Shown here one piece after another: positions 592 to 17,596 of a DNA stretch of 64,000 nucleotides. The notes under the pieces are model-generated. The model ran no database searches and was not told where the DNA came from. It worked only from the letters and a program-made list of their open reading frames with translations. Source of the DNA: Pseudorhodobacter sp. PARRP1 (GTDB lineage Bacteria > Pseudomonadota > Alphaproteobacteria > Rhodobacterales > Rhodobacteraceae); the NCBI GenBank assembly GCA_002256245.1, contig NKIU01000003.1, positions 310,001 to 374,000 on the forward strand, written 5' to 3'. A program made the translations under genes and the position numbers. How positions within the stretch are numbered: position 1 is the first letter of the stretch; the number at the start of each line of letters is the position of its first letter.

Positions 592-3102
592 ATGTTTTTG
601 TCCAGCCCCCGTGCGCATTCCGTGCGCGACCTTTTGGCCGATGACCGGGCGATACAGGCGTTGCCGTTGCCGGGCGGCGATATTGCGGCCACCACAGCCA
701 CGACCGGGCGCGTGACGCTTGGCTCCAGCACCTATGGCACGGTTGGGGCTTCGGGCGATCACGATTGGTATGCGGTCAGTCTGGTGGCCGGGCAAACCTA
801 TGATTTCCGGTTGCTTGGCGTGGGCCGCACCCCGCTGGCGGATACTCTGTTAACCCTGCGCAACGCCTCGGGCACGCAGGTGGCGGTGAATGACGACGCC
901 GGTGGCGCGCTTACATTGAATTCGGCGATCACCTATACTGCGACGACGACGGGCACGTTTTTTCTGGATGTCAGCGGTTTCAGCAGCGGCACCGGAGATT
1001 TCGTGATCTCGGCCGTGCGCGACAACGCGGCGGGTATGGTGCTGACCCCCGATGAGGTGGCGTGGCAACTGACCAACAATTTTGAGCGGTTCTTCTCGTC
1101 GGGCGTATCGCAGAACGTGCCGGCGACCGCCTATGATTTGTCTGCCGGGCGCACGATCACCTATAACGTCTCGCAGTTGACCTCGGCCGGGGCGGCTTTG
1201 GCGGTGCAGGCGCTGCGGATGTGGTCCGATGTCAGCGGCATCAATTTCGTGGCCACCAATGGCGCGGCACGGATCACCTTTGACGACAGCGAAGCCGGGG
1301 TGAATGCCTATAACAACAATGTCACCGCTACGGATGGAAGTGGCACGATCACGTCGTCGTCGCTGATGATCACCACCGGCTGGCTGACCCAGTTTGGCAC
1401 CTCGTTTGACAGCTATAGTTTCGAGACCACGATCCACGAGTTGGGCCACGCGCTTGGGTTGGGACACGGTGGCAATTACAACGGCTCGGCCACCTATGGC
1501 GTTGACAATTTCTACGTCAACGACTCGCAGCATTTGTCGATCATGTCTTACATGCAGTCGGTCAACGACGAATTTTCGCGCGACGGCACTGATTTCAACA
1601 CCTTCGTGAACGCGCAATTCCGTTGGGTGCTGACGCCGATGATCGCGGATATTCTGGCGATCAGCAATCTTTACGGGCTGTCCACCACCACCCGCACCGG
1701 CAACACCACCTATGGCTATAACTCCAACACCGGAAACGCGGCGCTGGATCAGGCGGTGACGTTGAATGACCCGGCCAGCAACAGCTATGTGGCCTTCACG
1801 ATCTTTGACAACGGCGGCGTTGATACGGTGGATATGTCGGGCTTTGCGGGCGCGCAACGGATTGACTTGCGGCAAGGCGAGTCATCCGATGTGCTGGGCG
1901 GGCGGCTGAATATGGGCATTGCCTACGGCACGGTGGTTGAAAACGCCTATGGCGGCGGCGGCAATGATACAATCACGGGTAACAGCATTGCCAACTTGCT
2001 GCGTGGCAACAATGGCAATGACTTTCTGAACGCTGGCAGCGGCAACGATACGCTTGAAGGTGGATCTGGTGCGGATACGTTGAACGGTGGGGCTGGCCGC
2101 GATATCATGACGGGCGGCAGCGGCAACGACGCCTACTTTGTTGACATGGCTGGCGACCTGATCAATGAGGCGGCTGGCGGTGGCACGGGTGATCAGGTTG
2201 TCGCAAGCGTCAGCTTCAGCCTGGCCATTGATGACGATATAGAATTCCTCAACACTACGTCTGCTGCGGGAACGCAGACACTACATCTGACTGGCAACAA
2301 TCTGGCGCAGTCGATCACGGGAAATGCAGGCGTAAACAATCTGTCCGGCTTGGGCGGGAATGATCGTCTTTTTGGCCTTGGCGGGGCGGATGTTCTCGAC
2401 GGTGGCGCGGGCAACGACACGATGACAGGCGGCACCGGAAACGACTGGTATTTTGTCGATTCACAATCGGACACCATTGTGGAGGATGCCGGGCAAGGCA
2501 CGGCCGACCGCGTGTGGGCATCTGCCAGCTTTGCGCTGGCAGCGGACGATAATATCGAGATCCTCAGCACAAGTAACGCCACGCCATCCGCCGCGATCAG
2601 CCTCACAGGCAATGGGTTGTCTCAGACAATTGTGGGCAATAACGGCGCGAACCAACTTGTGGGTCTGGGCGGGCACGACACCATCAACGGGGGCGCGGGC
2701 GCTGATACGTTGCTTGGCGGAACTGGCAACGATGTGTTGAACGGCGGAGTGGGTCGGGACCAGATGACGGGCGGGGACGGGCTTGACGTGTTCGTCTTTA
2801 ATGTCGCCCTCGTCCCGACAAACGTGGATACGATCATCACCTACATATCAGCCCAAGATCGGATCGTGCTGGATCATACCGTGTTCAGCGCCTTGGCGGT
2901 GGGGGCGCTGTTGGACGCAAATTTTGCAGCCAACACGACAGGGCTTGCCGTACGGAGCACGGACCGGATTATCTACGAGACCGATACAGGCAATCTTTAC
3001 TACGATGCCGACGGGGCTGGTGGCCCTGCTGGGTCGTTGGTATTTGCCAATGTCGGTATAAACGTTGTTGATTTTGGGTATCGAGAGTTCTCGATATTCT
3101 GA
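592..3102 (+). CDS. Serralysin-like secreted zinc metalloprotease with PPC domain and RTX repeats
   Basis: This 836-residue protein is a calcium-dependent extracellular protease of the metzincin M10 type. Residues about 30-135 resemble a bacterial pre-peptidase C-terminal (PPC) beta domain. The zinc motif HELGHALGLGH covers residues 282-292, with His282, His286, His292 and the general base Glu283. The Met-turn SIMSYM follows with Met318. From about residue 453 to 735 there are several blocks of glycine- and aspartate-rich RTX nonapeptides (GGxGxD). The C-terminus ends in hydrophobic residues without a cleavable N-terminal signal, as expected for type I secretion. No ABC exporter or membrane-fusion gene is adjacent, so secretion must rely on genes elsewhere. 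Serralysins usually start directly with the catalytic domain, so the PPC domain in front is a less common layout. Confidence 0.9.
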   Translation: MFLSSPRAHSVRDLLADDRAIQALPLPGGDIAATTATTGRVTLGSSTYGTVGASGDHDWYAVSLVAGQTYDFRLLGVGRTPLADTLLTLRNASGTQVAVNDDAGGALTLNSAITYTATTTGTFFLDVSGFSSGTGDFVISAVRDNAAGMVLTPDEVAWQLTNNFERFFSSGVSQNVPATAYDLSAGRTITYNVSQLTSAGAALAVQALRMWSDVSGINFVATNGAARITFDDSEAGVNAYNNNVTATDGSGTITSSSLMITTGWLTQFGTSFDSYSFETTIHELGHALGLGHGGNYNGSATYGVDNFYVNDSQHLSIMSYMQSVNDEFSRDGTDFNTFVNAQFRWVLTPMIADILAISNLYGLSTTTRTGNTTYGYNSNTGNAALDQAVTLNDPASNSYVAFTIFDNGGVDTVDMSGFAGAQRIDLRQGESSDVLGGRLNMGIAYGTVVENAYGGGGNDTITGNSIANLLRGNNGNDFLNAGSGNDTLEGGSGADTLNGGAGRDIMTGGSGNDAYFVDMAGDLINEAAGGGTGDQVVASVSFSLAIDDDIEFLNTTSAAGTQTLHLTGNNLAQSITGNAGVNNLSGLGGNDRLFGLGGADVLDGGAGNDTMTGGTGNDWYFVDSQSDTIVEDAGQGTADRVWASASFALAADDNIEILSTSNATPSAAISLTGNGLSQTIVGNNGANQLVGLGGHDTINGGAGADTLLGGTGNDVLNGGVGRDQMTGGDGLDVFVFNVALVPTNVDTIITYISAQDRIVLDHTVFSALAVGALLDANFAANTTGLAVRSTDRIIYETDTGNLYYDADGAGGPAGSLVFANVGINVVDFGYREFSIF

Positions 3103-3200: not shown

Positions 3201-4601
3201 TCAACCGGGGTTGAAAAGCCACGCGACAAGCGGGGTGATTGCGATGGGCTGGGTGGTGTCCACATCGTGCCGGGGCGCGAGGCCAGTCGGCTTTGCGACG
3301 GCCGCAAGGGCGATCAGTTCGGGCACATAATCGGCACCCGGATGGCCTGCGGGGCGGGTGCCCAGACGGGCCGCGTAGCGCGCGCCGATCACTTCGGGCG
3401 GGGCGTGGCACCAGATTTCGGCGATGTCGGTCAGGCCTGCGCGGGCGATGTGGTCTTGCAGCACCTGCGTGGGTTGGAAGCCGAACCATGCGTCGATGAT
3501 CACGGTGGTATCTGCGGGGGCTTCGGCGATCAGATCAAAGATCGCGGCATAGGAGGCGCGGCCCAAGGTGCGGTTGAACAGCCTGTCCCCCGGCGGCAGG
3601 ACGGTAAGGAACGGGTTCTTCACGGTATCCAGCGCAAGCACCGGCCAGCCTGTCGCATCGGCCAGCGCACGCGCCACGCCGGATTTGCCCGAAGCAGGCA
3701 CGCCGTTGACAAATACGGCACGTTTTGCGCGGCGGTTTTTCCGCGCGGCGGTGGCGGCCCCGATGACGCCCGCATCATCCCCCAGAATGGCTGCGCGCAC
3801 GGGGGCAGAGAACCATGACGGCGCGGCAGGAAAGCGGGCCAGCGCGGCATGGGCGGCAGCCCCGGCACCGCCGCCGATCAGCACGACATCGGGGTTGAGC
3901 GTGGCGGTCAGCGTGTCGATGGCGGCGCGGAGGGGGGCTGCCCAAGCGCGGATCACGGCTTGTGCGGCGGGCTTGGTGCTTGCCATCAGGGCCTCGGCCC
4001 TGGTGTCGGCGGGCAGGCCTGCTTCGGCCAGATGCACCCCGAAAGCGGTGCCCGACGAGGTGGTTTCAACGCAGCCGATCTTGCCACACACACAGGCGCG
4101 GCCCTGCGGATCAATGCAGATGTGGCCGAGTTGCCCCGCAGCGCCGCGCCCGCGCAGCACCTGACCATTGTCGAGCACCGCGCCGCCGATGCCGGTGCCA
4201 ATCGTCAGCATCACCACGTTCTGCTGGCCCTTGGCCGCGCCATAGGCGGCCTCGCCCAGCAGGGCCATGGTCGCGTCGTTTTCGATTGTCACCGCAAGGC
4301 CGGTGGCCGATTCGATCTGTCCGGCAAAGTCAAACCCAGACAGATCGACATAGCCGCCCGACAAGACTTGCCGTGTCGCGGCATGGACTTGCCCCGGCAC
4401 ACCAATGCCAAGCGCGTTGCAGGTGTCATTGCGCACCTGTGCGACCAATTCCAGCACGCGGGCGGTCACAACGGCAGGGTCGCGGGCGCTGTCGGCACTG
4501 GCGCGGGCCTCGATCACCCCGCCCACCACACGCGCGGCACGCAAGCGGGTGCCGCCGATGTCGATGCCGATGGCGCTGCCTGTCGCAGTCCCAGAAGTCA
4601 C
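3201..4601 (-). CDS. ROK-family sugar kinase fused to a P-loop kinase domain
   Basis: Residues 1 to about 288 form a ROK sugar kinase. The ATP-binding start is GIDIGGT, the catalytic Asp lies in ENDATM, and the structural zinc motif CVCGKIGC follows GQLGH. That last motif has Gln where ROK kinases usually have Glu. Residues from about 295 to 466 form a second, unrelated nucleotide kinase with a Walker A loop GVPASGKS at 300-307. This part resembles chloramphenicol-phosphotransferase or AAA-type small-molecule kinases. At 466 residues it is about 160 longer than a normal ROK protein, with no stop or frameshift between the halves. The start is GTG at 4601, with AAGG eight bases upstream inside the end of the aldolase gene. 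It is co-transcribed with the aldolase, 3 bases apart. The substrate is unknown; phosphorylation of the sugar imported by the neighbouring transporter is inferred. Confidence 0.82.
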   Translation of the reverse strand: MTSGTATGSAIGIDIGGTRLRAARVVGGVIEARASADSARDPAVVTARVLELVAQVRNDTCNALGIGVPGQVHAATRQVLSGGYVDLSGFDFAGQIESATGLAVTIENDATMALLGEAAYGAAKGQQNVVMLTIGTGIGGAVLDNGQVLRGRGAAGQLGHICIDPQGRACVCGKIGCVETTSSGTAFGVHLAEAGLPADTRAEALMASTKPAAQAVIRAWAAPLRAAIDTLTATLNPDVVLIGGGAGAAAHAALARFPAAPSWFSAPVRAAILGDDAGVIGAATAARKNRRAKRAVFVNGVPASGKSGVARALADATGWPVLALDTVKNPFLTVLPPGDRLFNRTLGRASYAAIFDLIAEAPADTTVIIDAWFGFQPTQVLQDHIARAGLTDIAEIWCHAPPEVIGARYAARLGTRPAGHPGADYVPELIALAAVAKPTGLAPRHDVDTTQPIAITPLVAWLFNPG

Positions 4602-4604
4602 GGC

Positions 4605-5516
4605 TTAGGCCTTGAAATGCTTGGCAATCACCGCCTGAATTTCACGCAGGCGGGGCACAGCGATGGTTTCCAGCTTGGTTTTTGTCACCGCGCGGTCCAG
4701 CGAAATGCAGTCTTTCCACAGCGAGCGCCCCGCGATCACGCCAGATGCGCCATTGGCCATCGAGGTTTCGACCTGGCCGAGGAAAGTGGCATGATCGACG
4801 CCCGCCGACAGCACCGCCCACGGCACGCTGCCGCACATCGCGGTGATGTTGGCGCAGGCTTGCGGCGTGCCCGGATAGGGGATTTTCAACACTTTCGAGC
4901 CCGCATCAAGGCACAGCTTCGAGCCGCCTTCGATCAGTTCGGGGATTTTGGCGGCATAGGCCTCGGGCGCTTCGCCGGGCAGGGCGTATGTCAGAAATTC
5001 GACCACCAGCAGCAGGTCTTCGGCGGCGAAATCGGCGATAGACGCGCGCAGGGTGGCCATGTTGGCGGTGTTGGCCGCAGGCGTGTCCGAGCGCAGGTAG
5101 ATCATGATCTTGGCCCCGGTGCCGCCCAGTTCGCGCACACGGCGGGCGTTGATGCCTTCGCACATGTTGGAAATCCGGTAGCCTTCGGGGGTAAGATCAA
5201 AGCCCGAGGCATCAAGGCCAATCAGCAGCCCGGTCGTGCGGTGGATCGCGCCCTGATCGACCATGCCCGGCACAGCACAAATCGGGTCAACCAACACGCA
5301 GCCAGCATGGCGGGCGAGGTAGGCGGTGATATCCATCTTCGTCTCGCCCAGCGTGGCATTGGAAATCGCCGCCTGCTCCTCGGGCGTTTTGGCGAGGATG
5401 GTGCGCATTCCGCCGCGCTGATCGCAGGCAATGACCATCATTGCGCCATCGTCGCCGCAGATTTGGCTATAGCCGCGGCGTTCGGCGGTTGTCATGCTGG
5501 ACATCGGGGCGGCCAT
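4605..5516 (-). CDS. LacD/YihT-like class I ketose-phosphate aldolase
   Basis: The 303-residue protein matches the LacD type of class I aldolases, which cleave tagatose-1,6-bisphosphate or 6-deoxy-6-sulfofructose-1-phosphate into two three-carbon fragments by a Schiff base. The expected lysine is Lys211 in LKIPYPG. Other family landmarks are the N-terminal ACDQRGGMR and the DAGSKVLK stretch. Start 5516 is chosen because GGAG lies six bases upstream; an open frame continues further upstream to 5615 but has no better signal. The gene diverges from the SorC regulator and leads into the ROK fusion gene. No sulfoquinovosidase or sulfolactaldehyde reductase is nearby, so a sulfosugar role is not supported and the true substrate is open. 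Confidence 0.8.
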   Translation of the reverse strand: MAAPMSSMTTAERRGYSQICGDDGAMMVIACDQRGGMRTILAKTPEEQAAISNATLGETKMDITAYLARHAGCVLVDPICAVPGMVDQGAIHRTTGLLIGLDASGFDLTPEGYRISNMCEGINARRVRELGGTGAKIMIYLRSDTPAANTANMATLRASIADFAAEDLLLVVEFLTYALPGEAPEAYAAKIPELIEGGSKLCLDAGSKVLKIPYPGTPQACANITAMCGSVPWAVLSAGVDHATFLGQVETSMANGASGVIAGRSLWKDCISLDRAVTKTKLETIAVPRLREIQAVIAKHFKA

Positions 5517-5616
5517 CGGGTTCTCCAGATATTTGGCGCGGGCCAGGGGGCGAAGATGCCAGTTGCCTGAACGCGGATATTGCGGGATAAGCTTGCGGTA
5601 GATAACCTGTAACACC

Positions 5617-5635
5617 TTGCAGAAAGGAATTGCAA
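5617..5635. promoter_or_regulatory. Candidate SorC operator between aldolase and regulator
   Basis: The 162-bp divergent spacer contains TTGCA-N9-TGCAA, a perfect 5-bp inverted repeat. A related half-site (CTTGCAG followed by A-rich DNA) recurs in front of the transporter operon near 6635. This fits autoregulation and shared control by the adjacent SorC protein, but it is inferred from position only. Confidence 0.35.
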
Positions 5636-5678
5636 CCTGTCAATTTCCAACGGGGCCGTCATCGGTGAAAACCGGGCC

Positions 5679-6584
5679 ATGCTGCATACTGTCGCCAAGC
5701 TGCATTACGAATCGGACCTGAGCCAGGTTCAGATCGCCAAGCAGTTGGGGCTATCGACGGCCACGATCTCGCGGCTGTTGCAGCGGGCGCGTGCCGAGGG
5801 GATCGTGCGAATCGAGGTGCGCGATATTCACGCGCCGGATGCGTTGGGCGGGATGCTGGCCGAGCGGTTGGGGTTGAAGCTGGCCGTGGCGGTGGATGCG
5901 CCAGCGGCGGCGGGGGTGCAGGCGCTGGCGGCACCGCTGTCGCGGATGGTGGCGGCGCGGGGGCTTGGGCAGGGCTCGGTGCTGATGGTGGGATGGGGGC
6001 GCACGGTGGCCGCGATCATCGACGGCGGTTTGCCCAGCTTGCCGGGGGTGAGTGTTGTGCCCTCGACCGGCGGGATGAGCCAACATGCGCAGCATTTTCA
6101 AAGCAACGAATTCGCGCGCCGCGCGGCCGAGGTGACGGGCGGTATTCCGCATTTCATCCACGCGCCCTATCTGCCCGCCCCCGAGGCGTTGGATTTCTTT
6201 CTGGCCGAGCCGGGGGTTGAGGCTTCGGTGGCGCTGTGGGACCGGATTGATCTGGCTGTGGTGGGCATCGGGCTGCCTTATGGCCTTGACCGCCCGACGC
6301 AAGGTGCGACCGATGTGGGCGACCCTGATCTGACCGAAGCTGCGGGCGATGTGGTGCGGCATTACTTCGACGGCGCAGGGCAGATCGTGCCGTGGCGCGG
6401 TGAGGGGCAGATGATTGCGGTGTCTTGCGCGCAGTTGCGGCGCGCGCCTTTGGTGATTGGCGTGGCGGTGGGAGAGGCGAAAGTGCCGTCGATCATTGGC
6501 GCGGCGAAGGCGGGGCTGATCTCGGGCCTGCTGACCGACACGCGCACCGCCGAGGCGGTTATGGACGCTTTGGCGCGGGGATGA
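5679..6584 (+). CDS. SorC/DeoR-type sugar-responsive transcription regulator
   Basis: The 301-residue protein begins with a helix-turn-helix (DLSQVQIAKQLGLSTATISRLLQRARAEGIV, residues about 13-43). A SorC-type sugar-phosphate-binding domain follows, with landmarks GWGRTVAAI and GIGLPYG. SorC proteins bind phosphorylated sugar intermediates and control the adjacent catabolic operon. The frame stays open upstream of the ATG, and residues there resemble the N-termini of relatives, so a non-ATG start near 5637 is possible. The gene sits between the divergent aldolase/ROK pair and the transporter operon, so it probably controls both. Confidence 0.85.
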   Translation: MLHTVAKLHYESDLSQVQIAKQLGLSTATISRLLQRARAEGIVRIEVRDIHAPDALGGMLAERLGLKLAVAVDAPAAAGVQALAAPLSRMVAARGLGQGSVLMVGWGRTVAAIIDGGLPSLPGVSVVPSTGGMSQHAQHFQSNEFARRAAEVTGGIPHFIHAPYLPAPEALDFFLAEPGVEASVALWDRIDLAVVGIGLPYGLDRPTQGATDVGDPDLTEAAGDVVRHYFDGAGQIVPWRGEGQMIAVSCAQLRRAPLVIGVAVGEAKVPSIIGAAKAGLISGLLTDTRTAEAVMDALARG

Positions 6585-6654
6585 GTCTGGTGCGCAGGAA
6601 GGGCTGCGCGACGGGCTGCGAATCCAAGAAAATACTTGCAGCAAAAAATTTCTC

Positions 6655-6683
6655 TTGACGAAGCGCGGTGAACCACGTGTTAT
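6655..6683 (+). promoter_or_regulatory. Sigma-70-type promoter of the sugar transporter operon
   Basis: TTGACG and TGTTAT are separated by 17 bases, about 90 bases upstream of the binding-protein gene and after the SorC stop codon. An A-rich stretch with the possible SorC half-site lies just upstream of the -35 element. Confidence 0.5.
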
Positions 6684-6775
6684 TCGAGGCATTGGCGGCG
6701 CCCGCGTGGCGTGAAACAGCCAACTGCTTTGCCACTTGAGGAGGTGGCGCAGCGGGTATTCAGGGAGGAATATGG

Positions 6776-7759
6776 ATGAAACGTCGTAGCTTTTTGGGCG
6801 CTGCTTCGGCATTGGCGCTGACATTCTCTATCGCCACGTCGGCGGTGGCAGAAGACAAGAAATACACCATCGCGCTGGTCCCCGGTCTGACCACCGATGC
6901 GTTCTACATCACCATGCAAAAGGGCGCGCAGGCGGCGGCGGATGCTTTGGGCGTCGAGCTGGTGTTTCAGGGCGCACCCGATTTCAACCCGGTGACGCAG
7001 GTGCCGGTGCTGGACGCAGTGATCGCCCGCGCGCCCGATGCCATTCTGATCGCGCCGACCGACACCACCCAGTTGATCGAGCCTTTGCGCAAGGCGCATG
7101 ACGCAGGGATTGCGGTGATCACCGTCGATACGTTCATCGGCACGGGTGTTTATCAGACCGGTGCAGGGGACGCGGATTTCCCGCTGGCTTACATCGCATC
7201 TGACAACGTGCTGGGGGGGCGGATGGCAGCCCGTGCGCTGGCCAATGCAATCGGCGGCGAGGGCAAGGTGTTTGTGTCGAACGTCAAGCCCGGCATCTCT
7301 ACCACTGACCAGCGTGAAGCCGGCTTCAAGGCCGAGATGGCCGAGAATTTCCCGAAAGTCACCGTGCTGGAAACCCAGTTCAACGACAACGATGCCAACA
7401 AGGCCGCGTCGCAGTTGCAGGGCGTGTTCGCGCGTGACGCTGATCTGAAAGGCGTGTTCGGGGCCAACCTGTTCTCGGCTTTGGGCGCGGGCACCGGGGT
7501 GCAGCAAGCGGGCCAGACCGGCAATATCAAGGTCGTGGCGTTTGACGCACCGGGCTCGATCGTGGACAACATCAGCAGCGGCTTGGTCGATGTGGCGATT
7601 GCGCAGCATCCGGCCGAGATCGGCTATTACGGTGTGGTTTCGGCCTATGCCCACCTGACCGGAAACTCGATCCCGGTGAACATCGGCACCGGCTTTACCA
7701 TCATGGACAAGTCGAACATCGCTGATCCGAACGTCGCGAAATACATCTACTCTGAGTAA
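6776..7759 (+). CDS. Periplasmic sugar-binding protein of a CUT2 ABC transporter
   Basis: This 327-residue protein has a Sec signal peptide (MKRRSF followed by a hydrophobic stretch to about residue 24, AVA-E cleavage). The mature part is a RbsB/FrcB-type periplasmic binding fold with ILIAPTDTT and VVAFDAPGS regions typical of the Peripla_BP_4 family. It captures the sugar in the periplasm for the downstream permease. The start at 6776 is preferred over the ATG at 6772 because AGGGAGGA lies six bases upstream of it. It is the first gene of the operon and is followed by a T-tailed stem-loop. The ligand cannot be read from the sequence; ribose, fructose and xylitol relatives all share this fold. 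Confidence 0.9.
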   Translation: MKRRSFLGAASALALTFSIATSAVAEDKKYTIALVPGLTTDAFYITMQKGAQAAADALGVELVFQGAPDFNPVTQVPVLDAVIARAPDAILIAPTDTTQLIEPLRKAHDAGIAVITVDTFIGTGVYQTGAGDADFPLAYIASDNVLGGRMAARALANAIGGEGKVFVSNVKPGISTTDQREAGFKAEMAENFPKVTVLETQFNDNDANKAASQLQGVFARDADLKGVFGANLFSALGAGTGVQQAGQTGNIKVVAFDAPGSIVDNISSGLVDVAIAQHPAEIGYYGVVSAYAHLTGNSIPVNIGTGFTIMDKSNIADPNVAKYIYSE

Positions 7760-7766
7760 GCGCATC

Positions 7767-7797
7767 GGGGGAGGGCGCAGGCTCTCCCCCATTTTTT
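7767..7797 (+). terminator. T-tailed stem-loop after the binding-protein gene
   Basis: GGGGGAG pairs with CTCCCCC across a 10-base loop and is followed by ATTTTTT. The hairpin lies inside the operon, between binding protein and permease. It is therefore likely a partial terminator or mRNA-stabilising element that keeps binding-protein expression above that of the membrane parts. Confidence 0.75.
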
Positions 7798-7877
7798 GCC
7801 AAAGCGGTCTGACGACCAAGGCGGCCCAATGGGCCGCTGCGCGGGTGCGATCACCTGCCCAAGTTTAGGAATTTCAT

Positions 7878-8939
7878 ATGACATCGCCGCCAAGCATCCC
7901 TTCGACCCCGACCCATGTCGCGCCGCAGGCCGACCATGCCGACAAAGCGCGCACGCTGATGCAGCGTGTGGCCGATCTGCGGGCCTGGTTGTTTCTGGCG
8001 GTGCTTATTCTGGGGTTTGAGATCTGGTCGCGGTTGAGTTTTGGCGGCACCTTCCTGTTCAACCCGTTCAACATCCAGTCGATTGCGGTGTTTGCGGTGG
8101 CGCCGTTGCTGCTGGCGACGGGGCAGACGTTTGTGATCATCTCGGGCGGGATCGACCTTTCGCTGGGCTTCATCATGGGGCTGGCGGCGGTGGTGGCCGC
8201 GCATGTGATCAACTGGCTGACGCCGGGGCTGGGCTTTCTGCCTGCGGTGCTGCTGGGGGGCGTGGTGGCGGTGGCTGTTGCGGCAATCCCTGGGTTTATC
8301 AATGGCTTGCTGGTGGCATTTCTGAAAGTGCCGCCGTTTATCGGCACGCTGGGCATGTTTGGCGTGGCGCGGGGCGTGGCGTTTTTGCTGGCGGGCGGCA
8401 CCACGGTTCCGGTGAAGAACGAGGTGTTTGCCGCACTCGGCAATGGCCGGTTGGGCCCGGTGCCCTATATCGTGATCGTCACGGCGGTGTTTGTGTTGAT
8501 CATGCACTACCTGCTGGGCCAGACCAAATTCGGCCAGCACAATTATGCCATCGGGGCCAATGCCCAAGCCGCACGCCGTGCGGGCATCAACATCAAATGG
8601 CACTTGCTGCGGCTGTATATCCTGTCGGGTGTCTGCGCGGGGCTGGCGGGTGTTTTGTATGCGGCGCGGTTCAGCGCGGGGGCGGCGCAAGCGGGCGAGC
8701 CGCTGTTGTTGGATGCGGTGGCGGCGGTGGTGATCGGCGGCGCGAGCCTGTTTGGCGGATCGGGCACCATTCTGGGCACGGTTGCGGGGGCGTTCGTGAT
8801 CGCGGTCATCCAATACGGGCTGGTGTTCATCAACGTAGAGCCATTCTGGCAGTTTATTTCGGTGGGCGTGGTCATCATCATCTCGGTGCTGATTGATCAG
8901 GCGCAGCGGCGGTTCTCGGGAGGGCGGCAAAGTGAGTGA
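7878..8939 (+). CDS. CUT2 sugar ABC transporter permease (RbsC/FrcC-like)
   Basis: The 353-residue membrane protein has a proline-rich cytoplasmic start and eight to ten hydrophobic segments. It carries family landmarks such as ISGGIDLSLGFIMGL and VVIGGASLFGGSG, the EAA-like loop that contacts the ATPase. It forms the inner-membrane channel for the sugar delivered by the preceding binding protein. Its end overlaps the GTG start of the ATPase gene by eight bases, indicating translational coupling. Its length is usual for FrcC-type permeases. Confidence 0.9.
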   Translation: MTSPPSIPSTPTHVAPQADHADKARTLMQRVADLRAWLFLAVLILGFEIWSRLSFGGTFLFNPFNIQSIAVFAVAPLLLATGQTFVIISGGIDLSLGFIMGLAAVVAAHVINWLTPGLGFLPAVLLGGVVAVAVAAIPGFINGLLVAFLKVPPFIGTLGMFGVARGVAFLLAGGTTVPVKNEVFAALGNGRLGPVPYIVIVTAVFVLIMHYLLGQTKFGQHNYAIGANAQAARRAGINIKWHLLRLYILSGVCAGLAGVLYAARFSAGAAQAGEPLLLDAVAAVVIGGASLFGGSGTILGTVAGAFVIAVIQYGLVFINVEPFWQFISVGVVIIISVLIDQAQRRFSGGRQSE

Positions 8940-9705
8940 TATGACCCCAATCGGCCAGACCAAGATCGGCGATCCGTTGTTGGAAGTGCGCAATCTGTCG
9001 AAGAATTTCGGGCCGGTGCAGGCGCTGAATGATCTGACGATGATGGTGCGGGCGGGCGAAGTTGTGGCGCTTGCGGGCGACAATGGCGCGGGCAAGACCA
9101 CGCTGATCAAGGCGATTTCGGGGGTGTATCAGCCGTCCTCGGGTGAGATTTTGCTGAAAGGTCAGAAGGTTAGTTTCAACTCGCCGCAAGAGGCGCGCGA
9201 TATCGGGATTGAGACGATCTATCAGGATCTGGCGCTGGCCGATAACCTGACGATTGGCGCGAATATCTTTCTGGGCCGCGAGCCGATGCGCCGCGCGTTT
9301 GGGTTTCTGCCGGTGCTGGACCGCGCCAAGATGGCCGAGGCCGCCAAATCGACCATGGCTTTGCTGGATTTCCATGTCTCGCGCCTTGATGCGCCGGTGT
9401 CGAATTTCTCGGGCGGGCAAAGGCAGGCGGTGGCGATTGGGCGCGCGGTGTATTGGAACGCGCAAATCCTGATCATGGACGAGCCTACAGCGGCTTTGGG
9501 CGTGCCCGAGCAGCGCAAGGTGATCCAGTTGATCCACCAGTTGAAGGCGCAGGGGCGCGGGGTGATCTTTATCAGCCACAACTTGCAGGACATTTTCGCG
9601 GTGTCTGACCGCATCGTCGTGCTGCGGCGCGGGGTGCAGGCCGGAGAGCGCAAGATTTCCGAGACCACGCATGACGAGGTCGTCAAGTTGATGATCGGCG
9701 GCTGA
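8932..9705 (+). CDS. CUT2 sugar ABC transporter ATPase, single domain (FrcA-like)
   Basis: The 257-residue protein carries one ABC domain: Walker A GDNGAGKT at 50-57, Q-loop YQDLALA, signature NFSGGQRQ and Walker B LIMDEPTAAL. Most CUT2 systems use a 500-residue tandem ATPase; the single-domain form is typical of the fructose-type FrcBCA systems of rhizobia. The GTG at 8932 has GGGAGGG upstream; an ATG at 8941 is the alternative start. It energises uptake with the two preceding genes and is followed one base later by the PfkB kinase. Confidence 0.9.
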   Translation: MSDMTPIGQTKIGDPLLEVRNLSKNFGPVQALNDLTMMVRAGEVVALAGDNGAGKTTLIKAISGVYQPSSGEILLKGQKVSFNSPQEARDIGIETIYQDLALADNLTIGANIFLGREPMRRAFGFLPVLDRAKMAEAAKSTMALLDFHVSRLDAPVSNFSGGQRQAVAIGRAVYWNAQILIMDEPTAALGVPEQRKVIQLIHQLKAQGRGVIFISHNLQDIFAVSDRIVVLRRGVQAGERKISETTHDEVVKLMIGG

Positions 9706-9706
9706 G

Positions 9707-10657
9707 ATGGCCGTGGTGATCGGGGCCATCGGCGAATTGCTGGTGGAGTTTGTCTGCACCGAACAGGATGGCCGCAACCTGCGTGCGGCCCCCTATATCG
9801 GGCCGTTTCCATCGGGCGCGCCGGGGATTTTCATTGATCAGGCGGCACGGGTGGCGCGCAGTTTTGGCGGGCGGGCGGTGTTTGCGGGTGCGGTGGGGGA
9901 CGATGCGTTTGGGCAGGTGATCTTGCAGCGATTGGTCGCGGGCGGCGTTGACCCCGGCCTGATCCGGGTGGTGGCGGGGGTGCCGACCGGATCGGCCTTT
10001 GTCAGCTATAACAGCGATGGCAGCCGGGATTTCGTGTTCAACATCAGCCATTCGGCGGCGGCGCAGTTGCCGGGGTTGGAGGAGATTGCGGCGGGATTTC
10101 TGGCGGCGGCGATTGCGGTGCTGCATATCTCGGGCTCGATGCTGGGCGATCCGGCGATGCGGGCGGTGGGGTTGGCGCTGTGCGAGCGGCTGGATGCGGC
10201 GGGGGTTGCGATCTCGATTGATCCCAATATCCGGCCCGAGTTGATCGCCGATGCGGGCTATCTCGATGCGCTGACACGCATCATCGCGATGGCGGATTAT
10301 GTGCTGCCCTCGGATGCCGATGCGTCGGTTTTGTATCCGGGGCAGGCGTTTGAGGATTGGTCGCAGCGGTTGCTGGCGGATCAGGCGCAGGTGGTGGTGT
10401 TGAAGCGCGGTGATCAGGGATGTGTCGGGCGCGATCGTGTGGGGCAGGTCGATCTGCCCGCGCATAGGGTTCAGGTTGTCGATCCAACCGGGGCGGGCGA
10501 TTGCTTCTGCGCGACCCTGGTGACGTTGCTGGCGGCGGGTCAGGCTTTGCCGGATGCTTTGGCGCGGGCCAATGCGGCGGGCGCTTTGGCTGTGCAGAAA
10601 TTGGGGCCGATGGAGGGGAACTCTGCTTTGGCCGACATTGACAGATTGAAAGGATAG
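9707..10657 (+). CDS. PfkB-family carbohydrate kinase
   Basis: The 316-residue protein has the PfkB/ribokinase fold. The N-terminal glycine motif (SFGGRAVFAGAVGDDAFG, about 64-81) and the C-terminal signature DPTGAGDCF at 259-267 are intact, with the catalytic base at Asp265. It transfers phosphate from ATP to a sugar or keto-sugar acid in the cytoplasm. KDG kinases, fructokinases and ribokinases all share these motifs, so the substrate is unresolved. The ATG follows the ATPase stop (TGAGATG). It is the second kinase of this locus besides the ROK fusion. Confidence 0.87.
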   Translation: MAVVIGAIGELLVEFVCTEQDGRNLRAAPYIGPFPSGAPGIFIDQAARVARSFGGRAVFAGAVGDDAFGQVILQRLVAGGVDPGLIRVVAGVPTGSAFVSYNSDGSRDFVFNISHSAAAQLPGLEEIAAGFLAAAIAVLHISGSMLGDPAMRAVGLALCERLDAAGVAISIDPNIRPELIADAGYLDALTRIIAMADYVLPSDADASVLYPGQAFEDWSQRLLADQAQVVVLKRGDQGCVGRDRVGQVDLPAHRVQVVDPTGAGDCFCATLVTLLAAGQALPDALARANAAGALAVQKLGPMEGNSALADIDRLKG

Positions 10658-10660
10658 GCG

Positions 10661-11737
10661 ATGCCCCTCAAACAAGATCGGTTGCTGCGGGTGGGTGTGC
10701 TGGGCTGCGGCCCGATTGCGCAAGCCGCGCATTTCGAATCCTGCACCAAGGCCGCGAATGCCGAACTTTATGCGATTTGCGATGTCGCCGATGATCTGCG
10801 CGACCGGATGGCGGCCACCCACGCGCCACGCCGCAGTTATAATGATTACGCGGCCATGCTGGCCGACCCGGAACTGGAGGCGGTGGTGATTGCCACCTCG
10901 GATGCGTTCCATGTGCCAGCGGCTTTGATGGCCTTGCAGGCGGGCAAGCATGTGTTGTGTGAAAAGCCGTTGGCGACCAGCGTCGAAGAGGCCGAGAGTT
11001 TGCGCGCAGCGGTCGCGGCAAGCAGCTCTGTGCTGCAAGTTGGCCATATGAAGCGCTATGACGCCGGATTGCAGGCCGCGAAGGTGTTCATTGACACCGA
11101 AATGGGGCAGATGGTGGCGCTGAAGGCGTGGTATTGCGACAATACGCACCGCTACGCGATGACCGATGCGGTGCAGCCGTTGATGGTAACCTCAAAGAAC
11201 GCAAAGAAGCCGGCCGAGAACCCCAAGGCCGATCTGGACCGTTACTACATGCTGGCCCATGGCAGCCATCTGGTTGATACCGCACGCTATTTTGCCGGAG
11301 AAATCGTGGCGGTGGATGCGCGGCTGTTAAACCGCGCGGGCATCCGCTGCTGGTTTGTCGATGTGGAATTCGCCAGCGGCGTGCTGGGCCACCTTGATCT
11401 GACGGTGGCGGTGCGGATGGATTGGCACGAAGGGTTTCAGATTTACGGCGAACAAGGCTCGGTCTTGGGCAAAACCTATAACCCGTGGTATTACAAGTCG
11501 TCCGAGGTGGATATCTTCCGCGAAAGCGATGGCGCGACGCATCGGGTGTTGGGCGCGGATGGGCATTTCTATCGCCGCCAGCTGGAAGGCTTTGCCGATA
11601 CGATCCTGAAGGCCGTGCCGCAATCGGGGGCGGATATCGAGGACGGTATCGCCTCGGTCCGCGCGATGGTGGCGATTGCGCAATCGGTGCGGGAAGGCCG
11701 TCCGGTGACGCTGGCCGATGTGGCGGGGCCGCTTTGA
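10661..11737 (+). CDS. Gfo/Idh/MocA-family NAD(P)-dependent dehydrogenase
   Basis: The 358-residue protein begins with a Rossmann fold (VGVLGCGPIAQAAHF, about residues 8-22) and has the family motif CEKPLA near residue 107. The rest is the beta-sheet substrate domain. Members oxidise sugars, inositols or sugar phosphates at a ring hydroxyl, often giving a lactone or a 3-keto sugar. The stop overlaps the next start (TGATG). The neighbouring isomerase-like and hydrolase genes suggest that its product is further isomerised or hydrolysed. Substrate unknown. Confidence 0.88.
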   Translation: MPLKQDRLLRVGVLGCGPIAQAAHFESCTKAANAELYAICDVADDLRDRMAATHAPRRSYNDYAAMLADPELEAVVIATSDAFHVPAALMALQAGKHVLCEKPLATSVEEAESLRAAVAASSSVLQVGHMKRYDAGLQAAKVFIDTEMGQMVALKAWYCDNTHRYAMTDAVQPLMVTSKNAKKPAENPKADLDRYYMLAHGSHLVDTARYFAGEIVAVDARLLNRAGIRCWFVDVEFASGVLGHLDLTVAVRMDWHEGFQIYGEQGSVLGKTYNPWYYKSSEVDIFRESDGATHRVLGADGHFYRRQLEGFADTILKAVPQSGADIEDGIASVRAMVAIAQSVREGRPVTLADVAGPL

Positions 11738-12564
11738 TGCGCTTGGGGATTTTCGCCAAGACCTTTGCGGGCAGCGATCCGGGCACGGTTTTGGCGGCGT
11801 CAAAGGCGGCGGGGTTTGCCTGCGTGCAGTATAACATGGCCTGTTCGGGGTTGGCCGCGATGCCGGATGCGCTAAGCGCGCAGGATGTGGCGGCGGTGAC
11901 TGCGGCCAGTGCTGCGGAGGGCGTGGCGATTGCGGCGGTGTCGGGCACTTACAACATGATCCACCCCGACCCAAGCCTGCGGGCCAAGGGCTTGGCGCGG
12001 TTAGAGATTTTGCTGCGCAATGCGCGGGCGATGGGCACCGGGATGGTGACGCTGTGCACCGGCACCCGCGATCCGCAGGACCAGTGGCGGCATCATCCCG
12101 ACAACGCCAGCCCCGAGGCTTGGGCGGATTTGTTGACCGAGATGGGTAAGGCCTGCGCCATCGCCGAGCCTTTGGGCATCAAGCTGGGGATCGAGCCGGA
12201 ACTGGCCAATGTGGTCGATACGGCACCCCGCGCGCGGGCGTTGATCGACACGTTGCAAAGCCCGGCGCTTGCGATTGTGCTGGACCCGGCGAATTTGTTT
12301 GAGGTGGCGCGCCTGACCGAGCAGCGCGATCTGTTGTCGCGGGCGGTGGATCTGCTGGCCGACCGCATCTTGATGGCCCATGCCAAAGACCGCGACGGGC
12401 AGGGCGGTTTTGCCACGGCGGGCAAGGGCGTGGTGGATTTTCCGCACTTTTTGGGGCGGTTGAAAGCGGCGGGGTTTGATGGCGATCTGGTGACGCATGG
12501 GCTGGCCGCAGACGAGGCTTCGGGGGTGGCGCGCTACCTCTCTGGCGTGTTGGCAGAGCTTTGA
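11737..12564 (+). CDS. Sugar phosphate isomerase/epimerase-like TIM barrel
   Basis: The 275-residue protein starts MRLGIFAKTF and has the xylose-isomerase-like AP endonuclease-2 fold. Metal ligands are likely in GIEPELANVV, VLDPANLF and LMAHAKDRDG. Proteins of this family commonly sit beside Gfo/Idh dehydrogenases in inositol, keto-glycoside and sugar-acid pathways, where they isomerise, epimerise or dehydrate keto sugars. The start at 11737 is set by the overlap with the previous stop and by the family-typical N-terminus. The longer open frame upstream is an out-of-frame shadow of the dehydrogenase gene. Confidence 0.83.
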   Translation: MRLGIFAKTFAGSDPGTVLAASKAAGFACVQYNMACSGLAAMPDALSAQDVAAVTAASAAEGVAIAAVSGTYNMIHPDPSLRAKGLARLEILLRNARAMGTGMVTLCTGTRDPQDQWRHHPDNASPEAWADLLTEMGKACAIAEPLGIKLGIEPELANVVDTAPRARALIDTLQSPALAIVLDPANLFEVARLTEQRDLLSRAVDLLADRILMAHAKDRDGQGGFATAGKGVVDFPHFLGRLKAAGFDGDLVTHGLAADEASGVARYLSGVLAEL

Positions 12565-13382
12565 TGCGGACGGGCACCCTTCAGCGCGACGGCTTGCAGT
12601 TGGCGGTTTATGGTGCGGGTGAAACTGGCCCTGCGCTGGTATTTCAGCACGGACTTTGCGGCGGTGCGGGCCAGATTGCCGAGGCGATGCAAGGGCTTGC
12701 ACCCCAGCGTTGGCAGGGGTTGGAGTGCCGGGGGCATGGCTACTCGCCGCTGGGCGAGACGGTTTCGATTGCCTGCTTTGCCGAGGATGTGGCGGCGATG
12801 ATCGCGCAAATCGGGGGGCCGGTGGTGCTGGGCGGTATCTCGATGGGGGCCGCGATTGCTGCGCGGATTGCGGTGACGCGCCCCGATCTGGTGCGGGCTT
12901 TGGTTTTGGTGCGGCCCGCTTGGGTGGTGGACGCAGGCCCCGAAAACATGGCCCCGAATGCCGAGGTTGGCATGTTGTTAGAAATGCTGCCGCTGGATCA
13001 GGCGCGGGCGTTTTTCGATGCGGGCGAGACGGCGCAGCGGTTGGCGGCAGCAGCGCCGGACAATCTGGCCTCGCTGAAAGGGTTTTTCCGAAGGCAACCG
13101 CTGGCAGAAACCGCGCGGCTGTTGACGGCGATTTCCGCGGATGGGCCGGGGATTTCGGCTGCGGATTTGCAGGCATTGCGTATCCCGGCGCTGATTTGTG
13201 GCTGCGCCGAGGATGCCATTCACCCGATGGCCCATGCGCAGGCTTTGGCACATCTGATCCCGGATGCGCGGCTGGTGGAACTGCCTGCCAAGGCGCGCGA
13301 TAAAGCAGCACATCTGGCAGCCTTGGCCTGTGCGATGACAGAATTTTTGAAGGAGATTGACCATGCCCCGCCCGCAGCCTGA
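12564..13382 (+). CDS. Alpha/beta-fold hydrolase
   Basis: The 272-residue protein has an oxyanion-hole HG motif (FQHGLCGGA, about residue 31), the nucleophile elbow GISMG near residue 93, and a likely catalytic His in the C-terminal AAHLA segment. The fold matches enol-lactone hydrolases and esterases. Placed after a sugar dehydrogenase, lactone hydrolysis is a reasonable inference, but esterase activity on an acylated sugar is equally possible. It overlaps the upstream gene by one base and the downstream epimerase gene by 20 bases, so it is part of one coupled operon. Confidence 0.78.
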   Translation: MRTGTLQRDGLQLAVYGAGETGPALVFQHGLCGGAGQIAEAMQGLAPQRWQGLECRGHGYSPLGETVSIACFAEDVAAMIAQIGGPVVLGGISMGAAIAARIAVTRPDLVRALVLVRPAWVVDAGPENMAPNAEVGMLLEMLPLDQARAFFDAGETAQRLAAAAPDNLASLKGFFRRQPLAETARLLTAISADGPGISAADLQALRIPALICGCAEDAIHPMAHAQALAHLIPDARLVELPAKARDKAAHLAALACAMTEFLKEIDHAPPAA

Positions 13383-14055
13383 CTGGATATCCGCCCTGCC
13401 GCGCAACCGTCTGTTGGCGGAGTATTCCATGTGGTCAGCCAATCTGATCCGCTTGGCGGATGATCTGGCAAGGATCACACCTTTTGCAGATATCCTGCAT
13501 ATTGACGTGGCAGATGGCCATTTTGCCCCGGCTTTGTTGTTCTTTCCCGACCTTGTGGCGGGGTTGCGCGGGCAGACGGCTTTGCCGATCCATGTGCATC
13601 TGATGGTGGATGATGCGGTGTTGATCTCGCAGATTGATCAGTTTGCCGAAGCCGGGGCGGACCTGATCTCGGTGCATGTCGAGAACGCCAATGCCGGTGA
13701 AGGGTTGCAGCGGATCGGGGCGCATGGGCTGAAGGCCGGGATGGTGCTGCGGGTGGAGACACCTGTCGAACGCGCCGCCGAATGGGTGGGCCGCTTGGAT
13801 ATGCTGACGCTTTTGGGCACCGCGATTGGCGTCAAGGGGCAGGGGCTGGACCCGACAGCGGGCGCGCGGTTGGGCGCGGCGCAGGCGCTGATCGCGGGCG
13901 CTGGGCGCCGGGTGGTGCTGGCGGCGGATGGCGGTATCCGCGACACCACCGTGCCGCTGCTGCGTGCCGCAGGGGCCGAGACGGTGGTCATGGGCTCGCT
14001 GGCCTTTGGGGCACCCGATCTGGCGGAACGGATGGCTTGGTTGCACGGATTGTAA
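13363..14055 (+). CDS. Divergent ribulose-phosphate 3-epimerase homologue
   Basis: The 230-residue TIM barrel keeps the Rpe/AlsE metal-binding residues: His46 and Asp48 (LHIDVADGHF), His79 (HVHLMV) and Asp189 (AADGGI). In normal family members the phosphate-side loop after strand 6 reads NPGFGGQ. Here it is GTAIGVKGQG, so the substrate is probably not ribulose-5-phosphate. AlsE-type allulose-6-phosphate epimerase is the closest functional analogy. AAGGAG seven bases upstream fixes the ATG at 13363, inside the hydrolase gene. It is the last gene of the transporter operon and converges with the bestrophin gene 16 bases away. Confidence 0.82.
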   Translation: MPRPQPDWISALPRNRLLAEYSMWSANLIRLADDLARITPFADILHIDVADGHFAPALLFFPDLVAGLRGQTALPIHVHLMVDDAVLISQIDQFAEAGADLISVHVENANAGEGLQRIGAHGLKAGMVLRVETPVERAAEWVGRLDMLTLLGTAIGVKGQGLDPTAGARLGAAQALIAGAGRRVVLAADGGIRDTTVPLLRAAGAETVVMGSLAFGAPDLAERMAWLHGL

Positions 14056-14071: not shown

Positions 14072-14962
14072 TCAGCTTAGATGGAAATCGTTCGGCTGCA
14101 ACGGCTTGGGCGCTTCATGCCCCAGATGCGGGGCAAGGCTTATTTCGGCCGCGCGGCAGATCGCATCAAGGGGCAGCGCGTTCAGCGTGCTGCCAAACGG
14201 ATGGCTCAGTTCCTCGGTCACTTCGGCAAGGCCCAGAAACACGTAAGCGACGATGCCCACGAACAGCGGCGTCAGCCAGCCCGAGGTTCCCGCCAAAGCC
14301 ATCGGCAAAAGCAGGCAGAACAGATAGGTGGTGCGGTAGATCAACAGCGAATAGACGAACGGCAGCGGCGTGCCGGCAATCCGCTCGCACCCGGCTTGTG
14401 CCAGCGCGATGCTGGACAGCCGTGCGGAAAGTGTGCGGGCGCCAAAGCCATCGATCCTGGCTGCCTGATAGGCCGCCGCCAGATCGGCGTTGATCAGGTT
14501 CAGCGCGGCACAAGGCGGGTGCGGATCGGCCAGAAGATCTGGCGCGCGGGCCTGTGCTTCGGCGTCGTCGGTCAGGCGGCGCAACTGGCGGCGGTGCAGG
14601 TGTAGAAATGCCAAGGATTGCAGCAGGATGCGGTGGCGCAGGGCTTGGTCTGGCGCGAAAATCTCTAACTCGCGCGCAAGGCTGCGCAGATCGGCCAGAA
14701 GGCCACCCCACAGCTTGCGGGCCTCCCACCAGCGATCATAGGCGGCGTTGTTGCGAAAGCTGAGAAACAGCGACAACGCGATGCCGAACACGGTGAAGGG
14801 GATGCCTTCGATATGCGGCAAAACCCCGAAATGGTGATCCAGCAGCACCATGACGGCGGCAAGAGCGATCACCCCCAGCAGCGGCCACGCGATATGCGGC
14901 AGCACCGAGCCGCGCATCGCAAAGGCCAGTTCCCACGCCCGGGGTTTGTCACGGATGATCAT
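14072..14962 (-). CDS. Bestrophin-like anion channel (UPF0187/YneE family)
   Basis: The 296-residue membrane protein has the bacterial bestrophin signature near the N-terminus: LSFRNNAAYDRWWEARKLWG, about residues 67-86. There are two hydrophobic pairs, around residues 25-65 and 205-245. Homologues form pentameric anion or cation channels in the inner membrane. The ATG overlaps the modC stop by four bases, so it is the promoter-distal gene of the mod operon. A role in molybdate or other anion homeostasis is suggested only by this position. Confidence 0.85.
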   Translation of the reverse strand: MIIRDKPRAWELAFAMRGSVLPHIAWPLLGVIALAAVMVLLDHHFGVLPHIEGIPFTVFGIALSLFLSFRNNAAYDRWWEARKLWGGLLADLRSLARELEIFAPDQALRHRILLQSLAFLHLHRRQLRRLTDDAEAQARAPDLLADPHPPCAALNLINADLAAAYQAARIDGFGARTLSARLSSIALAQAGCERIAGTPLPFVYSLLIYRTTYLFCLLLPMALAGTSGWLTPLFVGIVAYVFLGLAEVTEELSHPFGSTLNALPLDAICRAAEISLAPHLGHEAPKPLQPNDFHLS

Positions 14963-16062
14963 GCTGTGCCTTTCTGGCCGATGCCGGTGCCGATATCGGT
15001 TTGCGCCGCGGCGACCGATTTCACAATCGCGAAGATCGGCAGGCCGGGTGCAAGGCCAAGCGCCTGCGCCGAGCGGTGCGTGACGCGGGCCAGCAGATGT
15101 TCGCGGCCAAGTGCGATCTGGATCAATGCGCCCTGATCGGTCATGCGGATTTCGCGCACTGTGCCTGCAAGGATGTTCAGCGCCGACAAACCTTCGGGGC
15201 GGTGGCGTGACAGGATCACGTCTTGGGCGGCGATGCGCAGGCGCAGGCTGGTGCCGATGGGGCTTGCGAGACGCGGCAGCCAGATCGGCCCGCCCGCTGT
15301 ATGCAGTTCTGTCAGCCCGTCGGCGTCTTGTGCGGTGATGACGGCAGCCAGCACAGACCCTGCGTCGCGCAAACCCATCGCGGGGGCAAGGTCGGGATCG
15401 GCGAGCAACGCGGCGGCGGGGCCTGCGCGCAGGACGTGGCCCTGATCCATCACCACAAGGGTGGTCGCAAGGCGGGCCACTTCGGGCAAGGCGTGGCTGA
15501 CATACAGGATCGGTGTTTGGGTGCGGTCCCGCAGCGCCTCGATATAGGGCAGCAGTTCGGCTTTGCGGGGCTCATCAAGGGCGGCGAAGGGTTCGTCCAT
15601 AAGGAGCAGCGCCGGGTTGGACAGCAAGGCCCGCCCGATCGCCACACGGGATTTCTCGCCGCCAGACAGCGCGGCGGGGCGACGGTGCAGCAGGCTTTGC
15701 AGGCCAAGCAGATCGGTGATCTGCTCAAAATCAGGGCCGGGGCCTTTGGGTGCAAACCAGCGGCCATAGCGCAGGTTTTGCTGCACCGTCAGATGCGGAA
15801 ACAGCCGCGCGTCTTGGAAGACGTAGCCGAGACGGCGGCGGTGGGGGGGCAAGTTGATGGCCTTTGATGTATCCAGCAACACGGTATGATCGGCGCTGAT
15901 CCGGCCTTGATCGGGGCGCAAGATGCCAGCCACCGCGTTGATCACGCTGGTCTTTCCCGAGCCAGAGCGGCCGAACAGTGCGGTCAGGCCGGGGGGGGCT
16001 TCGAACGCCACATCCAGCGCAAAGCCGGGGAAGTGGTGATGCAGGGTGACCGAAAGGCTCAT
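14959..16062 (-). CDS. modC: Molybdate ABC transporter ATPase ModC
   Basis: The 367-residue protein has Walker A GRSGSGKT at 31-38, signature LSGGEKSRVAIGRAL and Walker B LLLMDEPFAALD. The C-terminal region of about 70 residues is a TOBE/Mop-like molybdate-sensing domain (LNILAGTVREIRMTDQG onward). It powers molybdate uptake through ModB. It overlaps modB and the bestrophin gene by four bases each, so the three are translationally coupled. Length and domain order are standard for ModC. Confidence 0.95.
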   Translation of the reverse strand: MSLSVTLHHHFPGFALDVAFEAPPGLTALFGRSGSGKTSVINAVAGILRPDQGRISADHTVLLDTSKAINLPPHRRRLGYVFQDARLFPHLTVQQNLRYGRWFAPKGPGPDFEQITDLLGLQSLLHRRPAALSGGEKSRVAIGRALLSNPALLLMDEPFAALDEPRKAELLPYIEALRDRTQTPILYVSHALPEVARLATTLVVMDQGHVLRAGPAAALLADPDLAPAMGLRDAGSVLAAVITAQDADGLTELHTAGGPIWLPRLASPIGTSLRLRIAAQDVILSRHRPEGLSALNILAGTVREIRMTDQGALIQIALGREHLLARVTHRSAQALGLAPGLPIFAIVKSVAAAQTDIGTGIGQKGTA

Positions 16063-16757: not shown

Positions 16758-16762
16758 CGGGC

Positions 16763-17539: not shown

Positions 17540-17551
17540 GGGGTCTCCTGT

Positions 17552-17573
17552 GATATGTTTGGGCGAACATATC
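17552..17573. promoter_or_regulatory. Candidate ModE operator upstream of modA
   Basis: GATATGTT-N6-AACATATC is a perfect 8-bp inverted repeat in the 57-bp gap between modE and modA, ending 12 bases before the modA start. ModE boxes in proteobacteria are AT-rich palindromes at this position, although the exact Rhodobacter Mo-box consensus differs. It implies that modABC can be controlled separately from the polyol genes upstream. Confidence 0.6.
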
Positions 17574-17596
17574 GAACAGCGTCTGCGTCGCAAGCG

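Follow-up and report, generated by a model that had tools for sequence, protein, structure and literature searches.

Gene content of a predicted ketose catabolic locus and a separable cassette in Pseudorhodobacter sp. PARRP1

Described pathways and the Pseudorhodobacter locus

The Lac pathway (LacABCD), which proceeds through tagatose-6-phosphate, is one of several described systems that resemble a sugar locus at positions 3201-14055 of a 64,000-nucleotide stretch (the window; all coordinates are positions within it) of contig NKIU01000003.1 of Pseudorhodobacter sp. PARRP1. Two parts of this locus are distinguished here. Module A consists of a LacD-type aldolase, a ROK/P-loop fusion kinase, a SorC regulator and a FrcBCA-type importer, and is separable from module B, which consists of a Gfo/Idh oxidoreductase, an AP_endonuc_2 barrel (AP2), an alpha/beta-hydrolase fold protein and an Rpe/AlsE-like 3-epimerase. 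The Lac pathway shares with the locus the family of the aldolase and a cleavage that follows two phosphorylations. However, it uses a LacAB isomerase, the PfkB-family kinase LacC and a phosphotransferase system (PTS), whereas in the window LacAB was not found, a P-loop domain would act as second kinase and the importer is of the ATP-binding cassette (ABC) type. The Agrobacterium galactitol/tagatose route, with a tagatose kinase and a GatZ-type C4 epimerase, is comparable in that the PfkB of the locus is nearest to tagatose kinase and a GatZ-family gene adjoins in relatives, but the window locus is without GatZ. The lsr operon for autoinducer 2 (AI-2) likewise has a SorC-type regulator, a ribose-type importer, a DeoC/LacD-fold enzyme and an Rpe-like protein. 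Unlike the window locus, which has one permease and no LsrK or LsrG domains among the scanned proteins, it has two permeases, LsrK and LsrG, and the window aldolase is nearest to LacD and YihT; an AI-2/lsr-type locus was rejected on gene content. YihT, the sulfofructose-phosphate aldolase of the sulfoquinovose pathway, shows only distant likeness to the window aldolase, and that pathway was also set aside, no sulfoquinovose enzymes being recognised in the locus.

A closer precedent was published in 2017, when an aldolase, a ROK kinase, a second kinase and an ABC set were described in the Rhodobacteraceae bin08 (PMC5507952). The proposed route leads from mannoheptulose 7-phosphate via the 1,7-bisphosphate to dihydroxyacetone phosphate (DHAP) and erythrose-4-phosphate, and A. 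vitis Avi_5339 is cited there, as an unpublished observation, as binding mannoheptulose. Like the window, that locus holds a LacD-family aldolase, a ROK kinase and a second P-loop kinase together, and an ABC transporter whose binding protein is near Avi_5339 (the window protein is 78% identical to PDB entry 5dkv). Unlike the window, it has two kinases listed by COG (one COG0529), and the parts of the paper that concern this locus make no mention of SorC, a fusion, PfkB, GatZ or module B. The sequence-only reading of the window had held that no described pathway contains this set of genes, which does not stand for the aldolase, ROK and transporter genes; it holds at most for module B, for which our literature search was limited, and for the combination. 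Contrary to its view of an unknown substrate, that of module A had already been predicted. Module A belongs to a pathway that had been proposed in print before, and is here resolved in more detail. New here are the comparison of fused and PTS-type loci, a possible C4-epimerase branch, and module B as a separate cassette.

Aldolase, kinases and substrate of module A

We propose, with a probability of about 0.6, that module A serves to catabolise a 2-ketose whose C3-C5 arrangement is that of tagatose, most likely D-mannoheptulose and perhaps also D-tagatose, and that module B is a separate cassette. The reactions and their order, all of which we infer from the observed gene content, linkage, motifs and binding-protein identity, would be as follows. 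The ABC importer would take up the sugar, the ROK domain would phosphorylate its terminal carbon to give the 7-phosphate (with tagatose, the 6-phosphate), the 1-phosphate would come from the P-loop domain fused to it, and the LacD-type aldolase would split the bisphosphate to DHAP and erythrose-4-phosphate (or glyceraldehyde-3-phosphate). SorC would sense the sugar or its phosphate. The monophosphate may also be made by PfkB, and in many relatives it may continue via a GatZ-type C4 epimerase. Module B, encoded in the same gene row in the window, probably converts another sugar to a ketose or ketose phosphate. The earlier suggestion of a sugar catabolic locus ending in phosphorylation and aldol cleavage is supported as the likely end.

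The LacD-type class I aldolase (DeoC/LacD; PF01791, 1.6e-14) is encoded at 4605-5516 on the reverse strand, its start being more likely 5516 or 5504 than the listed 5615, as judged from relatives. Its nearest solved structures include YihT (71 bits) and a DUF2090 protein (73 bits). Lys137 and Glu174 are invariant in 88 of 88 aligned rows, among which S. pyogenes LacD is not included; judged from the motif, they would correspond to the catalytic Lys126 and Glu164 of that enzyme (PMC9007349). The kinase (3201-4601, reverse strand) joins a ROK domain (1.1e-44) to a P-loop domain (AAA_33, 9e-9) at about 3201-3731. Its ROK zinc motif is conserved (73 rows), as is its P-loop motif (86 rows, with locus L082 left out for its stop).

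Aldolase relatives were collected by a profile search of named genomes, which gave 145, and neighbourhoods were counted for the best 80, with locus classes set by scripted identity thresholds. ROK and P-loop domains were found fused in one open reading frame (ORF), with no PTS, in 64 of the 80 loci; all 64 contain SorC, and 63 contain the binding protein with an identity of at least 70%. The P-loop kinase adjoins the aldolase in 79 loci, and the remaining one (L088) stops at a contig end. ROK and P-loop form two overlapping ORFs in different frames in Labrys (L078), the second with its own ATG, while L082 (metagenome contig, 3370-4960) has the fusion in one frame with an internal stop. Among 198 genomes of the same family, the aldolase was found in five and the binding protein in six that include all five; in each of the five the two genes share a contig, at a distance of 1.3 to 4.6 kb, and the sixth genome, with no aldolase match, is 85% complete in 390 contigs. 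Among 385 genomes of the class, the aldolase was matched at 1e-90 only in the window's own genome, and the P-loop profile in two, one being the window's own and the other (L107) having an unrelated gene setting. Three Cypionkella aldolases are among the closest named ones (94, 93 and 92% identity, among the best 80 of 145 relatives) and group with that of the window in the tree (support 100/99), so that the source organism is probably a Cypionkella or a near relative; named relatives with the locus include Cypionkella psychrotolerans and C. aquatica. The aldolase set, which the sequence-only reading had left to a neighbourhood search, is therefore conserved elsewhere (64 of 80 loci; five of 198 family genomes), and beyond chance. 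A PdxJ-like gene, annotated as pyridoxine 5'-phosphate synthase, was seen near module A at 10161-10907 of locus L002 and 9724-10473 of L006, in both accompanied by a HAD gene; matches also occur in L038, L046 and L061.

In 13 of the 80 loci, all from Enterobacterales, the P-loop kinase is an ORF of its own, of 177-192 residues, with Sodalis-like PTS genes (IIA in 13 of 13, IIC in 12 of 13), and no ROK or binding-protein match was found in these loci. Over 173 residues, the P-loop part of the window kinase shares 42% identity with a Sodalis protein that is encoded on its own, the match beginning at the end of the ROK domain. The Sodalis aldolase sits behind PTS genes, and the IIC exceeds the cut-offs of both an ascorbate-transporter model (485.8 vs 380) and an unnamed-sugar IIC model (797 vs 657). 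The Sodalis plasmid row (L005, 8015-13678) reads PfkA-type kinase, PTS IIB, IIC, small protein, PTS IIA, P-loop kinase, aldolase and HAD, and relatives of its genes occur in 12-13 Enterobacterales loci. In an aldolase tree whose root was drawn at the midpoint only, the 14 PTS rows, which are these 13 and Sodalis, make up one side of a fully supported branch, beside rhizobial fused-type rows. The simplest reading is that P-loop kinase and aldolase are a fixed pair, and, by analogy, that the PTS would supply the first phosphate in Sodalis-type loci as ROK would here.

The sugar-binding protein of the ABC importer (Peripla_BP_4; 6776-7759, forward strand; PF13407, 1e-54) matched PDB 5dkv (A. vitis Avis_5339) with 519 bits and 78% identity, in a comparison for which the model used had a mean predicted local distance difference test score of 70.5. 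The segments that we take to line the sugar site match in this alignment. D-manno-Heptulose, the avocado sugar, has the C3-C5 arrangement of D-tagatose with one extra carbon, so that a LacD-type aldolase and a tagatose-binding site would fit both, and much of the evidence fits both sugars.

Several points weigh against this proposal for module A. A PfkA-type kinase is also present in 12 of the 13 Enterobacterales PTS loci, the contig of the thirteenth being short. Being present in addition to the P-loop kinase, it could make the bisphosphate, in which case that step may not belong to the P-loop domain. It would make a second sugar-phosphate kinase redundant there, which would favour a triose or tetrose kinase instead: the aldolase would split a ketose-1-phosphate and the P-loop domain would phosphorylate the aldehyde product. 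That alternative appears doubtful, however, since ROK kinases usually act on the terminal hydroxyl and we know of no aldehyde kinase of this family. As to the sugar, the aldolase scored below the curated cut-offs for tagatose-bisphosphate aldolases (145 vs 184 for NF009498; 55 vs 432 for TIGR01232), PfkB (9707-10657, forward strand) reached 269 bits against a cut-off of 420 for its best NCBIfam model, tagatose kinase NF049991, and the one GatZ scanned, that of L014, reached 478 bits against 569 for TIGR02810. The ligand of 5dkv is presumably alpha-D-tagatopyranose, although the entry title as read gave no ligand. To our knowledge, none of the enzymes of the locus has been assayed, and a literature search that paired mannoheptulose with other terms, and was not exhaustive, found no experimental bacterial route for this sugar. 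The published scheme is itself a prediction, and the binding of mannoheptulose rests on an unpublished observation (PMC5507952).

D-Tagatose as the true substrate is a possible but less probable alternative. ROK would then yield tagatose-6-phosphate, from which the P-loop domain would form the 1,6-bisphosphate; cleavage by the aldolase would give DHAP and glyceraldehyde-3-phosphate, and PfkB would act as tagatose kinase. The membership of the aldolase in the LacD/tagatose-bisphosphate family, the best model of PfkB, the presumed tagatose ligand of 5dkv and the presence of a GatZ/AgaZ-family gene in 27 of the 80 aldolase loci all fit, GatZ in E. coli supporting the conversion between fructose-6-phosphate and tagatose-6-phosphate (PMC11907403). 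Against it stand the mannoheptulose binding reported for Avi_5339 (PMC5507952) and the scores of aldolase, PfkB and GatZ, which are all below curated cut-offs.

The GatZ genes also bear on the heptulose reading. Mannoheptulose and sedoheptulose are C4 epimers, as are tagatose and fructose, and by this parallel GatZ could interconvert mannoheptulose-7-phosphate and sedoheptulose-7-phosphate. Of the 27 GatZ loci, 19 have a PfkB that shares 55% identity or more with that of the window; seven of the other eight have a PfkB match at 40-43%, and one (L030) has none. A two-branch heptulose pathway can tentatively be drawn, though it seems rather unlikely as a whole: PfkB and a GatZ-family C4 epimerase would convert mannoheptulose, via its 7-phosphate and in a single epimerisation, to sedoheptulose-7-phosphate and so lead into the pentose phosphate pathway, the branch through fused kinase and aldolase would run in parallel to erythrose-4-phosphate, and module B would be an undescribed oxidation-isomerisation cassette feeding another sugar into both. 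The window locus and loci L009-L013, which include the Cypionkella loci, have PfkB and no GatZ in the locus. The single GatZ-type epimerase of the window's genome lies on another contig, in a GalNAc-type locus (C5:22000-41000) in which GatZ/AgaZ, a DeoR-type regulator, a BadF-type kinase, a CUT1 importer and SIS-domain genes were recognised by eye, and a partnership of PfkB with this GatZ was rejected on that account. No match to phosphofructokinase PF00365 was found in the window's genome (the control matched nine of 14 genomes), so that the organism would benefit from a route entering below the phosphofructokinase step.

Module B as a separable cassette

Of the 64 fused-kinase loci, 24 contain module B with its four genes complete. 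The Gfo+AP2 pair is present in 31, the seven beyond these 24 being cut off by the limit of the fetched stretch; in the other 33 the pair was not found within the fetched DNA, four of them showing Gfo at the very edge. Within the family of 198 genomes, the Rpe-like protein occurs in five (three of them 73-85% complete); the aldolase is present in two of these and the binding protein alone in one, and the remaining two have neither. Conversely, no Rpe-like match at 1e-70 was found in three of the five aldolase-bearing genomes, which are 94-100% complete. Module B without module A at the whole-genome level was seen in two family genomes only, 73 and 76% complete, and the class-wide comparison is uninformative, the window's own genome being the sole match of 385. 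Among plasmid records, searched as plasmids only and each at 60-80% identity, the module B Gfo/Idh is present in 119 (96 of them Rhizobium) and the aldolase in 25, so that at least 94 of the 119 lack the aldolase on the same record. Fetched stretches show module B away from module A on plasmids of R. leguminosarum, R. johnstonii (pRL12), Agrobacterium, R. tumorigenes, Shinella, Mesorhizobium and Paraburkholderia, with a ROK-family gene following it in all seven cases and Rpe absent from the Mesorhizobium and Paraburkholderia stretches. R. tumorigenes 932 carries modules A and B on different plasmids in one strain.

These data bear on the view, offered as one option in the sequence-only reading, that all genes act in one line, from dehydrogenation to a lactone through hydrolysis, isomerisation and phosphorylation to aldol cleavage. 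Although all genes stand in one locus in the window, and module B is complete in 24 of the 64 fused-kinase loci, with Gfo+AP2 in seven more cut by the edge of the fetched DNA, the modules come apart both in loci (33 of 64 without Gfo+AP2 within the fetched DNA) and in genomes (three of five with the aldolase and without an Rpe-like match). Module B also stands beside a CUT1 importer in Agrobacterium and an AraF-type importer in Paraburkholderia. With modules A and B found apart in different loci, one linear pathway was set aside and appears very improbable, even though the hydrolase-fold protein may be active, since its Ser94, Asp218 and His221 do not vary in any of 30 rows (at the C-terminal position of His251, 22 rows have His and the others Tyr). 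A general Pfam scan of the locus proteins found no sugar-acid dehydratase among their domains.

The module B substrate could not be read from neighbouring importers, which gave no common answer. The Agrobacterium CUT1 importer is nearest to 4r2b, with glucose-binding protein 2b3b as the nearest sugar-named chain, the Paraburkholderia importer is AraF-type, and the one importer protein examined in Mesorhizobium had no match at 1e-25. The AP2 barrel matched allulose 3-epimerase weakly (2e-4); its Glu239, Asp267, His299 and His338 (long-ORF numbering) are invariant in 35 of 35 rows, His338 standing where ketose epimerases presumably have a metal-binding Glu. The Rpe-like protein is 58-69% identical to four relatives and in the alignment keeps what we take to be metal ligands and a G-x-x-G-Q phosphate loop, which makes a phosphorylated ketose its likely substrate. 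By gene order, the Rpe-like gene of pRL12 would be pRL120033, which a published table calls D-allulose-6-phosphate 3-epimerase and marks NE in both conditions (PMC5118466).

Gene layout and regulatory DNA

The assembly of the source genome comprises 4.35 Mb in 28 contigs. In the window, the genes named in the sequence-only reading are all present as open frames with the stated domains, by Pfam scan or, for the Rpe-like barrel, which had no Pfam-scan match, by comparison with solved structures. The two divergent rows are also present, although SorC does not stand between them but heads the rightward one. The leftward row, from about 5516 to 3201, comprises the aldolase followed by the fusion kinase. 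On the forward strand, SorC (5679-6584; PF04198, 1.3e-37) is followed by the binding protein, the permease (BPD_transp_2; 7878-8939; PF02653, 2.2e-38), a one-domain ATPase (8941-9705; PF00005, 1.7e-32; start inferred, the ORF list giving 8893) and PfkB. The row continues with Gfo/Idh (10661-11737; PF01408, 1.1e-23), AP2 (11737-12564; PF01261, 9.7e-32), the hydrolase-fold protein (12564-13382; PF00561, 1e-13) and the Rpe-like epimerase (13363-14055; Rpe structures matched at 5e-31), with overlapping or abutting ends among these four. For several genes the start in the ORF list lies too far upstream, judged from the shorter frames of relatives; an example is AP2, which more likely starts at about 11737 and not at the listed 11485. 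A gene on the opposite strand (14072-14962) closes the rightward row.

Two conserved blocks are candidate SorC operators, judging from their sequence. The first (5608-5642), between the divergent genes, is identical in six of six aligned loci and contains an inverted repeat, TTGCA-N9-TGCAA, at 5617-5635. The second (6626-6660, forward strand), before the binding-protein gene, is identical in all but three columns of six aligned loci, shares CTTGCAG with the first, and leads into TTGACG, which resembles a -35 element; TGTTAT at 6678-6683 resembles a -10 element, and 17 bases separate the two.

A gene for a large protein (592-3102, forward strand) ends shortly before the sugar locus. The protein has a segment, HELGH, like that of zinc proteases and numerous repeats of the GGxGxD type, and by eye appears serralysin-like. 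Beyond the locus, and convergent with it, 14072-17593 on the reverse strand holds, by eye, the bestrophin-like membrane protein gene at 14072-14962 and then ModC-, ModB- and ModA-like molybdate transport genes.

Overall, module B is conserved as a cassette. The fused kinase, if the two-step model is true, would be a single protein replacing two kinases, and the locus supplies intact genes and named relatives for testing the mannoheptulose scheme of 2017.

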